Positions 48,701 to 54,700 of a DNA stretch of 64,000 bases are shown in pieces. Below the pieces are notes generated by a model that saw only the letters and a list, made by a program, of their open reading frames with translations, did not search any database and was not told where the DNA came from. A program made the translations under genes and the position numbers. Each line of letters starts with the position of its first letter. The first letter of the stretch is position 1. Source of the stretch: Oryzias latipes (Eukaryota; Chordata; Actinopteri; Beloniformes; Adrianichthyidae); assembly GCF_002234675.1 (NCBI RefSeq), contig NC_019873.2, forward strand, positions 10,937,740 through 11,001,739, given 5' to 3'.

Positions 48701-51700
48701 TGTACACAGTTCAATTCTAACCCAATCTTTGATCCAATCAAAGACATTTTGCATATAATACCGCGGCTAGTGAAAGCCAATTCGCTGTGGCGACCCCTAA
48801 AGGGATATGCAAATGGTGAACAGCAGAATAAAGGTATTACATTGAATACTGCTAAAAATGCTAACACTAAAAAAATAAGTAAGACTTAATAAAAAGTAAA
48901 CAAAAGGTCTAAATATTGTTGAAAATATAACAAAACTGAAAATCTTAATGGTAAATCTGAATTCTGAATTAAATGGAATTAATAAATGGTTTTAATTAAT
49001 ATCCAACTTAGTATAAAGAAAATAGTATCACAGCAGAAATGTGCAGAATATTGATTGCCAAATATTCCATGGCAAATTTATCACATTTAAAAGGAGCAAA
49101 GCAGAAAATAGGAGGTGAATAATGTGTAACATTGCCATGAACACCAAAGTAAATTGTTAAATGCTAAATCAATTGTTTAAGTGGCAGTAAAGAAAAAAAA
49201 ACATGTAAATAATTCATATTTAGGAACAATGTTTAAGATATTGTCCAATTAAAAAAAATGTATAACTAAAGATTTAGCTGAAAACTTCTAGGATACGTTG
49301 ACTCATCGTCAAAATTTTATATCAGCTTCTTCAAAGGGAGATTAGTAATTCAAATCAATGGAAAACCTGCCTCGTGGCGCATAAGTTAAAAGTAACTGAT
49401 GTCTAAAATAACTCAATAATGCTAAGATTCATGCAAAAATGCTAACCAAATATTAAATGAGAAATACTTATACAACGAAAACAGCTGAGATGGAAATGCA
49501 TGCAACAAGAGGTTCTGCGATCCCTATTGAGCATTAGGTGCAGTGTGACAGTCTAGCATTTCAAGAATCACATTCTTTGGGAAAGTATTCAAGTCGCATC
49601 AATCTATCTGGAACTCAGACTTGGCCTGTGACTTGCTGATGATGTGATCGGCAGGTGGAGTCCAAGACCAACATGCTGGAGAAGCTGATTGTTCACCTTC
49701 TAAGAAATTTTTCTTATTTTCATCAGGACAATGATAAAAAAAGGTCCTCTAATTTTATTAATTTTTCCCTCCACTTACTAATGAGGGACACCAAGTCATC
49801 AAACTGGGTCACAGACGGAAGTACCGCTGAAAGCTGCAGTCATTCAGCGGCAGCTCCTGCAGTAGATTGTGAACATCCCCGTACTGGGAGAATCTCTGAA
49901 GGATCTCGTGAGCCCAGACATGGAGACGTGATTACCAATGCTTTTGTGAAGCTTTTTAAAATAAACCACTCGCCACAAAGACAGCTTCTTCCCCTGAGCT
50001 GTCACTCTGATGAACTCCTGACCACTCAAAAACACTGAACAAAACCACAGAAACTAGCAAACCAGAACTACTGTTGCATTTTTACTTAGTTATTTTTTTA
50101 TTTTGTTATTTTAATTTATTCCTATATCTAGACATAGACATATCTACCTTATATTACTTTCTTTTTTATTATTTATCCTTTTTTTTTGTCTTACTCCTTT
50201 ACACTTTTTTTTTTTACACAAGACACTGAAGCCAAATTCCTTGTACATTCAATTCAATTCAATTTTATTTGTATAGCCCAAATTCACATATGTCGTCTTG
50301 ATGGGCTTCGTACGGTGGCCCTGAAGTGCAAAGCATTCAACAAATCACTCGATACAAAAACATTTTTAAGATCACAACAACAATTAAAAAAAAAAAAAAA
50401 AATTTAAAAAGCAGCATTACATTTTAGAAAACAAAACAAAATTTCAGAAACCAAAACTTGAAAAACAAAAATGACAAAAAAAAAACATTTCAGAAAACAA
50501 AATTAATTTCCAGGAAAAAAAGAAATATTAAAAAATGAAAACATTTCAGAAAAAAAAAAAAAAAATTCCAGAAAAAAAATGAAATATTAAAAAATGAAAA
50601 ACATTTCAGAACACAATGAATTTCCAGAAAACAAAACGAAATCTTCAAAAATGAAAAACATTTCCAAACCGGAAGAGGCAGGTACTATGGGACAACGCTG
50701 ATTGGATGAGGATTTTTGTCAATCATTTGAACTGAAAAGTATTTTAAATGAAGCGATGACGGATTTTATCGTCCAAACAACAATGTACTATAATAATCCA
50801 CGAATTTCCCATTTATATATCAAATAAAAAATGCAGCAAACTGTTAATGAACTTTAAAATTATTTTTTTAACATTTCGCCTGACACACGGTCACCCGGAA
50901 GTAGTTTGTGAGCACTTTTACTTTGAACGCTGTGCGCTAATGTCTACGGCTGCGAGGTTCATGCTGTCAATCATCTTTAGGTAAGAATCAATTCTGTGAT
51001 CTTTTCTTTTGTCAGTCACATGTCTCTAAGGATGTTAATTTTAGGATGTTAAAGTGCTGCTTTGAAAAGATAATTTCTTTATCTTGCGCATGCGCAAAAG
51101 GAACCCGATGGAGACGAACCGTCTTCACACGATAGCCGTTCCCGTTTTCGGTGACAACATGAGAGAAAAAGCTCCGAGCCAGCCTGATTCTGTGATTTAT
51201 ACAGTAATTACAGTAATTATATGGCATCAGTGTTGCTAAAAATCGACTTTAAGACTGAAATCAGTAAACAAGTTCTTATGGGAAATAATATTTAAGTGCA
51301 TTGTATATTTTAGAACCATGCATATACACATATACTGAAACTTAAAAATGAACTTTAAAGTTTATAAAATACTTAATTGAATTAACATGTGATATTTCTG
51401 CAGGTGAAGTTTCTCAAAGCGAAGTTCCAGAAAGGTTTGTGCTGCAGAAGAACAGATGGCAGCTGAATACAACAAGACTAAAGTCATTCATATCATTGTG
51501 CAGTGTACAGGCAAGTCACCAGGATTTATGTGAAATGTAATCAATAAATATTATTTAACCTTAATATCTATTTTTTTTTTTTAAATTGCAGGTCCTTTAA
51601 AAAAACGTCTTTAACCTGCTGCATAAGCCTGATTAGTTGTAAATGATGCAGTGGGGAGTGAAAAACGAAGCACAATTCCTGGCTTTAGCGTCGGGCTGAT

Positions 51701-54700
51701 GATCTGGAAATCACATCTGAGGAATCGCATCAAACACTTGTTCAACTCCAAACAACTTAATAATCCTTTAAGCAAAACTCCAGTTTAAAATGTTCATATT
51801 AGACTTGCTTCATTTAGGAGCTTTTCCATGTTTACCATTTTAGGTTTTAAAGCTTTATTAACAATGTTGATGTTTGATTTTCAAAGCTGTTGTTTAGAAA
51901 TGTTTCTTTGTCAATGAAAAAACTGAATGCTGACATGAGGATTGTAATAATGGATATGAAAATAAACAAATTTGTTTCATAGCAATGCAGTATATTTATT
52001 GAAAACTTAACATGAATACGTTATTCAAAAACAGAAACAAAGAAACAGTTGTGGATTTTCCTTTATGGGCTTCTTCATGCAGTCAATCAAATGTTGCGCT
52101 TACAATCAGCATTTACTCAGCGTACCTGTCAGTCACATTTATTAGAGGAAAAAATGCATCTGGGAAAAGTCTGTTTGTGCTTAACTATATCAAAAAGAGT
52201 CATGTCAGGGAAGTTTTGTCCACATTGCTGCTCAGCATCACATCCAGAGGAAGATGCACAAGTAAGGGGACCCCAGTTCCTGCTCGTACATGCTTGCAGC
52301 TTCCTCTGCACTGGACTCCAGCTCCATTGAAATCCCTGACAGAAATAAATTAATAAATTAAAAATCCCTGACAGAAAAACATCAGCTGCCGTTCATCTTT
52401 CATTCAGGAAAAAGTTGAGTTCATCAAAATGAGGAGAAAATGGGTTAAACCAGAAATTCATTAGGGAGGGGTCAAAACACCAAACTCAGAATAAAATACA
52501 TTATTTCAGTCTTATAAAAAATACATTCTAAAACAATTTGGTATTCTTCCTCTGCCTGAAAGACTAAAACGTTTTTTTTAAAGATTTATTTTACACTACA
52601 GACTTTGCCACCGTTAGTTACACACCTGTACATGTCTGATGATGTGCACATCCAGTCATTTACTGTCATGTTTCTGTGCACTGACACACTCTAAAGTCAC
52701 AGATCTTAATAGTGTGAATAAGAAGCATTCATAAATGTTATTCTGAGACACAAACTGCTGCAGTTTACCTGACAGCTTTGCTGATTTATGCGGCTGGTTC
52801 ACCTGTCTGAGAATCCTGCCCACGTGACCCCCCCCCCCCCCTCTCCAGGTGATGAGGTAACCTGTCATTAACGTATGACTGAAGGATCTTGGATCTGTCT
52901 GTAAACACCCACCTAGAAATCACGTTTAACGCTACATTTATTAGATCAAACAAATGTGCCTCCATACCTTATCAGTGGATGGCGGGACTGCATTTCCTGA
53001 TGTGCGCCGTCTTTAACACCCGTTTCTTCGCAGCTGCTGCTTCAGACAGAATCCTCTCACAGACATTTCGAAACAGTTGTAAACCTGGTTGGTGTTGATA
53101 TTTCTGGGTGCGTTCTGTCATCACATCCGCTAAATATTCAAAGATTAAAGTTTATGTTAACGTTTTACCGTCCCTTTCTTTGTTTACCTGCAGAACGGAC
53201 GTCATCCACACAAACTACTTCCGGGTGACCGTTCTGCTTCAGACGAAATATTCAAAAAATAATTTAAACCTTCATTATCTGTTTGCTGCATTTTTGATTT
53301 AATATGTAAATGGGAAATACGGGAATATCATGGTACATTGTTGTTTGGACGATAAAATCCGTCGTCGCTTCATTTAAAATACTTTTCAGTTCAAATGATT
53401 GACAAACATCATCATCCAATCAGCGTTGTCCCATAGTACCTGCTTCTTCCGGTTTGGAAATGTTTTTCATTTTTGAAGATTTCGTTTTGTTTTCTGGAAA
53501 TTCATTCTGTGTTCTGAAATGTTTTTCATTTTTAATATTTCATTTTTTTTCTGAAATGTTTTTCATTTTTTAATATTTCATTTTGTTTTTCTGAAATGTT
53601 TTCATTTTTTTTATTTCATTTTGTTTTCTGGAAATTAATTTTTTTTCTGAAATGTTTTCATTTTGTAATATTTCTTTTTTTTTCTGGAAATTAATTTTGT
53701 TTTCTGAAATCTTTTTTTCTTTTTTTTCTTTTTTATGTTTTGGTTTCTGAAATTTTGTTTTGTTTTCTAAAATGTAATACGCTTTTTAAATTGTTGCTGT
53801 GATCTTAAAAATGTTTTGTATCGAGTGATTTGTTGAATGGTTTGCACTTCAGGGCCACCGTAGCTTCGTATCGGTAATTGACAAAGTTAAACATAAAATC
53901 AAAAGGATCATGAATACATAGAATTCAAGAGTAAAATACTAAATTGAACTAACAAACTGACTAAACTAAACTGGACATCCCTGCCCTTAGACCCCCCTTC
54001 GTGGTAAGGAAAAACTCCCAAAAAAACTGGATTCCGGAAAAAATGAAGAAACCTCAGGGGTGCCCACATGAAGGAGGGATCCTACCCCAGGACGGACAGG
54101 CGATTTACCAGAACTCATAGGGAAGAACTAACTTATCTATCTCTACAACTACATATTTAAAGTCCAGCAGACGAGCTTCCTCCATCCGGAGTTGGGGGGA
54201 CAGTCGGGGGCACGAGTTGAGCCGGAGACAGGATCCACAGCCAGGTGTGGTACATGCACTGTACTTGGCCAATAAAGCTGATTCTGATAAATAAACCTGA
54301 CCTCTCAGAATCATCTGTGTAAATCTGTATATACAAATTATTCAGACAATGCCTTCATGTAGCAATGGGGCTAAAAGGTTTTGAGAGTAAGTAGCTCCTC
54401 CTACATGGGTCTGTAACGTCAAGTTTATGAACACATTTCTGGACGTCAACCAGCTAATCTTGACGCGTGTCAAAAGTCAAGGCGGACACGATTCGCGCTT
54501 GGTGTGAACCCAATAATAAAAAGGGTCAAACTAATAGCTTGGCTGCCACATGTTTATAACATCTGTAGAAAAAAGTTGCAAACTCAAAAACACTTTAACT
54601 CTGTTTAACAAACATTGCACTTCGCAGTTCTAAAAATGGATAATTGAACAGATAGTGAATAACAACAGAGAGAAAAAGGAGCAATATGTGCTCAACACTC

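Follow-up and report, generated by a model that had tools for sequence, protein, structure and literature searches.

An intron of the elongation factor 1-alpha (eEF1A) gene of medaka, Oryzias latipes, carries a 3552-bp DNA transposon that is, in our judgement, probably a young, non-autonomous IS3EU-like element moved in trans. It lies in a 64,000-nucleotide stretch (the window) of contig NC_019873.2, positions 10,937,740 to 11,001,739 of the forward strand in assembly GCF_002234675.1; unless a contig or locus is named, the coordinates below are those of the window. The unit is a real, well-delimited transposon copy, and its membership in IS3EU is likely, judged from the sequence of its ends and from its target duplications. 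The flanking exons match eEF1A up to residue 208 on one side and from residue 207 on the other, which places the element inside an eEF1A intron, where it is inserted into a dispersed repeat. The housekeeping-gene intron proposed from the letters of the window, in what we call the sequence-only reading, is thus that of eEF1A.

The element opens with TACGGTGGCC from position 50311 and closes with GGCCACCGTA up to position 53862. These are exactly the limits that the sequence-only reading had given for a transposon with long terminal inverted repeats (TIRs), and TIRs of about 600 and 654 bp are indeed present. Aligned with gaps, bases 1-600 of the left TIR and 1-654 of the right TIR agree at 81.8% over 659 columns. 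In the outer 56 bp, the two ends are identical at 52 of 56 positions, compared with 30/56 when the left 56 bp are set against the best-matching place in the rest of the window's complement, with the element and 100 bp around it excluded. Of the 38 copies that were aligned, most have TIRs of about 600-690 bp. Each arm holds tandem arrays, followed by a better-conserved stretch toward the inner border. Tandem Repeats Finder (TRF) returned rows at 50481-50664, 53501-53635 and 53586-53732, plus overlapping rows; the internal arrays described in the sequence-only reading were therefore recovered, but their units are near 19, 38 and 56 bp and not the 11-mer that it had suggested. The left 360 bp contain the motif ATTTC[A/C] seven times, the right 420 bp ten times.

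For the target duplication, 40 loci were examined: 30 are the top matches to the interior, with the window's own copy as one of them, and the other 10 come from the 40 TIR matches that were scored. L022 and L035 were left out as having no end pair, and L040, L042, L043, L045, L046 and L047 as having an incomplete outer flank in the stretch read, so that 32 of the 40 loci could be scored. The 6-bp duplication is exact in every one of these copies (32/32), and none of them is exact at another length in the range of 3-12 bp. This fixes the duplication at 6 bp: of the two lengths offered by the sequence-only reading, 6 or 8 bp, the first stands and the second falls, and the relatives lacking duplications that it had named as evidence against itself did not appear among the scorable copies. 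The duplicated hexamer weakly follows the pattern S-WWWW-S. The ends read TACGG..CCGTA in 31 of the 32 scored copies and TACGG..CCATA in the remaining one (L013), which is still within the IS3EU consensus. The host repeat supplies a further line of evidence. Its copy at 3100-3491 is uninterrupted at the point of insertion, has a single GCTTCG there and thus represents the empty site, which indicates a clean insertion accompanied by a 6-bp duplication. A further copy of this repeat, seen at the alignment level in L043, spans the insertion point in one alignment at 87%.

Relatives were sought in 734 Mb of genome sequence on 25 contigs. The interior query (51000-53200) gave 267 first-look candidates, the best 40 of which were scored; 39 of these 40, the window's own copy among them, match the full query at 96-100% identity. 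Among the 30 best interior copies, the median Kimura two-parameter (K2P) distance to the majority sequence is 0.0098, with a range of 0.0050-0.0147, and the window copy is the most diverged. The best copies are young; since they were selected as best matches, the K2P values may understate the age of the whole family. The terminal 22-mer, allowing up to two mismatches, has 2049 matches in the genome (1021 + 1028), whereas the same 22-mer read backwards as a control has one (0 + 1). The inner, unique stretch of the TIR gave 547 first-look candidates, of which the best 40 were scored. Furthermore, 200 bp were read at 12 other ends on contig C1, each with an exact 22-mer and without a facing exact end nearby. 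These ends diverge strongly beyond the 22-mer, and a like layout of A-rich ATTTCCAG-like units was recognized by eye in ten of them, the exceptions being L057 and L058. As the 12 ends were chosen for an exact 22-mer, they necessarily contain it, and it is the 2049 genome matches that provide the independent evidence. The 22-mer is likely to be the core site of the transposase.

Facing ends within 60 kb of each other form 45 pairs among the 247 exact ends compared, and 32 of these pairs are spaced 3.4-3.8 kb, so that one length class is dominant. Smaller units with long inverted arms were found at L052 (764 bp) and L053 (481 bp), where the flanking hexamers are imperfect and agree at four and five of six positions, respectively. 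Four longer end pairs, with spacings of 14.7, 17.4, 26.6 and 34.7 kb, agree at 6/6, 4/6, 4/6 and 1/6 positions of the duplication. In the first of these, C3:7644646-7659371, the facing ends enclose a unit of 14.7 kb that is flanked by the perfect 6-bp duplication TAAACC. At C8:21216310-21338311, five exact ends follow one another on the minus strand at distances of 20-40 kb; perhaps tandem segmental duplication has multiplied a single insertion there.

In the stretch corresponding to 51000-53200, the longest stop-free frame is 105-127 residues in all 30 of the best interior copies. A Pfam scan of 8 of the 37 frames of the window gave no significant match, the one non-significant match among them being to Otospiralin (E 0.15, below the cut-off). 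Two loci were considered as autonomous copies and rejected. L003 matches the element to position 625 only and then continues into a 452-residue frame that, by eye, we take for a long interspersed nuclear element. In L040, the copy of the element is interrupted by a nested 3.8-kb insertion (L040:4977-8754) with inverted ends of its own, GGTAAC..GTTACC; the frames of at least 80 residues in L040 were inspected by eye only.

The ends and the duplication bear directly on classification. IS3EU elements generally have TA..TA ends and usually 6-bp duplications, according to the parts of the source consulted (PMC10045372), and the members in rust fungi are described, again in the consulted parts, with 6-bp duplications, ends TAYGG..CCRTA and TIRs longer than 30 bp (PMC12730594). 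The TACGG..CCGTA ends and 6-bp duplication of the medaka element fit this description, as do its TIRs, which exceed 30 bp. Thus, the type, which the sequence-only reading had left unassigned, need not stay so. A non-autonomous family would also be in keeping with the group, where such families are common: 17 of the 45 Repbase IS3EU families were autonomous in May 2022, as given in the portion of the source consulted (PMC10045372). In the accessible part of a survey of four teleosts, Table 2 has an IS3EU row with a single value, which by the order of the columns we read as zebrafish (PMC4746887). For IS3EU in fish, the little-described status suggested in the sequence-only reading is plausible. 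None of the paper titles listed for IS3EU, GingerRoot and long-TIR fish transposons names this family, and none of those listed for the letters TACGGTGGCC concerns transposons. GingerRoot, the sister group of IS3EU, is similar in its 6-bp duplications and mostly TA..TA ends, as stated in the part of the source consulted (PMC10045372), but was described from clubmoss. There are also differences between the medaka element and IS3EU. The first is the presence of tandem arrays in the TIRs of the medaka element. The second concerns gene content: the fungal members, as far as the consulted parts describe them, carry transposase, TET/JBP and alpha-kinase genes (PMC12730594), none of which was recognized in the medaka element.

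Several observations weigh against the IS3EU assignment. Five signature bases and a duplication length are a thin basis for naming a superfamily. The TIRs of roughly 600-690 bp contrast with those of the fungal members, for which the consulted text states only a length above 30 bp. Among the copies that could not be scored, L045 starts with TAAGG instead of TACGG. The remaining points come from a search for the enzyme with the profile rva_4 (PF24764, integrase core domain), which we take to represent the IS3EU/GingerRoot transposase. It yielded 858 candidates in the genome; the best 150 were scored, all above the cut-off, and several have stop-free frames of 250-370 residues, while 14 control genomes were silent. 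With so many rva_4 matches, integrase-like enzymes are present in the genome and might act in trans. Their positions were compared with those of exact 22-mer ends only, of which the genome has at least 299. For the 299 exact ends listed, a single one of the 150 matches is found on the inner side of an end at a distance of up to 20 kb, where chance would give about 1.2, so that rva_4 shows no association with the listed ends; among the ends listed, no copy has both these ends and a transposase. Moreover, the top rva_4 lineage (L049-L051) has no TAYGG..CCRTA end pair in the three loci read.

The sole rva_4 match placed inside a listed end, C2:534689, lies 10.2 kb inside the exact end C2:524462, which is at chance level, and L049 and L050 have a common repeat of about 2.7 kb. 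Across the genome there are more than 50 short rva_4 fragments with near-equal scores, covering about 133-187 of the profile and mostly in a 76-residue frame; possibly these represent another high-copy family, one that contains part of an integrase-like transposase. The polymerase-family profile PF03175 was silent in the genome and in its controls alike, and so gives no evidence either way on a Maverick origin.

The same facts can be read as an undescribed superfamily that resembles IS3EU by convergence in its TACGG ends and 6-bp duplication, and whose transposase escapes rva_4. The lack of any rva_4 match tied to the listed ends beyond chance, the unusually long TIRs, the 12 sampled ends that are alike in little besides the 22-mer and the existence of the 14.7-kb unit with its perfect duplication all agree with it. 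However, both published signatures of IS3EU, the termini and the duplication length as given in the consulted parts of those reports, are found in the element; the assembly may have few autonomous copies or none, and the ends listed are part of the total. We regard convergence as unlikely, while giving it some weight. Slightly less weight still is given to the claim that a transposase from beyond the rva_4/IS3EU lineage moves these ends, which would then mark a superfamily not yet catalogued, with strong conservation of the 22-bp end. If this were true, that superfamily would have about a thousand insertions in the genome (2049 ends, if paired), ranging from about 0.5 kb up to at least one unit of 14.7 kb, C3:7644646-7659371, which may hold its enzyme or cargo.

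Very little speaks for the remaining readings. TIRs of foldback elements contain tandem subrepeats, and subterminal tandem repeats are also a feature of the MULE/foldback group, much like the long, array-bearing TIRs seen here. MULE duplications, however, are mostly about 9 bp, a length that is exact in none of the 32 copies (0/32), and the constant 22-bp ends do not suit a foldback element; in both duplication length and terminal sequence the element differs from this group. The majority of plant MULEs do have long TIRs, according to the portion of the source consulted (PMC3310237), but the duplication counts discard the MULE reading, and we consider a MULE or foldback-type element very improbable. 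A derivative of Maverick/Polinton, that is, an internally deleted form of a virus-like element of 15-20 kb, would share the 6-bp duplication and the long TIRs, as far as the consulted parts of the source go, although the vertebrate ends listed there are mostly (AGT)2//(ACT)2, also (AG)3//(CT)3 and one further type, and not TACGG (PMC8097293). One 14.7-kb unit does exist in the genome, but neither the (AGT)2 or (AG)3 ends nor the virus-like gene set of these elements was seen in ours, and none of the interior frames scanned (0/8) has a significant Pfam match; the difference from the end motifs given in that source speaks against this reading, which we reject as even less credible than the MULE one. 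Finally, hAT elements make 8-bp duplications, and the window's GCTTCGTA would allow an 8-bp reading with the element taken as CGG..CCGTA, but the TA that this requires after the right hexamer is found in only 2 of the 32 copies (L009 and L029) and none is exact at 8 bp (0/32), whereas the symmetrical 6-bp reading is exact throughout, which leaves a hAT origin with next to no credibility.

On the IS3EU-like reading, transposition could proceed as follows. A DDE transposase of IS3EU type, encoded by an autonomous relative elsewhere, would be supplied in trans and would bind the 22-bp ends, as their conservation across the genome suggests, possibly assisted by the repeated subterminal motifs. The element would be excised by cut-and-paste chemistry and joined to the target through 6-bp staggered cuts, an insertion step that the duplications and the empty site support, and repair of the gaps by the host would leave the 6-bp target duplications. 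In this way, the window copy would have landed in the dispersed repeat of the eEF1A intron. The long, array-bearing TIRs may provide accessory sites for binding, or they may have arisen as a by-product when the arrays expanded.

If the IS3EU assignment is right, a young and abundant fish family is added to a sparsely described superfamily, and the group is able to carry very long TIRs with tandem arrays. The young copies, with their intact and near-invariant ends, would be convenient substrates for tests of IS3EU transposition. The biology involved is not of a new kind; the family is unusual for the length and the array content of its TIRs.

Table 1. Features of the element, its insertion site and its host gene in the window.
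Feature	Position	Strand	Basis
Non-autonomous (probable) long-TIR DNA transposon, 3552 bp	50311..53862	.	Exact coordinates, 6-bp duplications, empty site
Left TIR, about 600 bp	50311..50910	+	Gapped alignment to right arm
Right TIR, about 654 bp	53209..53862	-	Gapped alignment to left arm
Terminal 22-mer TACGGTGGCCCTGAAGTGCAAA, left end	50311..50332	+	Genome hits; likely transposase core site (predicted)
Terminal 22-mer, right end	53841..53862	-	Genome hits
Tandem array in left TIR, 56-bp unit, AAACATTTCAGAAAACAAAA-like	50481..50664	+	TRF
Tandem arrays in right TIR, 19/38/56-bp units	53484..53732	-	TRF, overlapping rows
Unique interior without recognized coding content	50911..53208	.	Stop-free frames and Pfam scan
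Target site duplication GCTTCG, left	50305..50310	+	Copy comparison and empty site
Target site duplication GCTTCG, right	53863..53868	+	Copy comparison and empty site
Host repeat, right part (left part ends at 50310)	53863..54200	+	Comparison with empty-site copy
Same host repeat with empty target site	3100..3491	-	90% over 400 columns across junction, single GCTTCG
eEF1A exon upstream of intron, residues about 106-208	47043..47351	+	Match to elongation factor 1-alpha
eEF1A exon downstream of intron, from residue about 207	54941..55162	+	Match to elongation factor 1-alpha

Two other features of the window were recorded. At 33896-34612 there are two tandem arrays with a 21-bp unit, in which GTTAGTTAACTA-like sequence is abundant. 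A lysine- and glutamate-rich open frame of 246 residues spans 62987-63727, with a 36-bp tandem repeat at 63447-63533.

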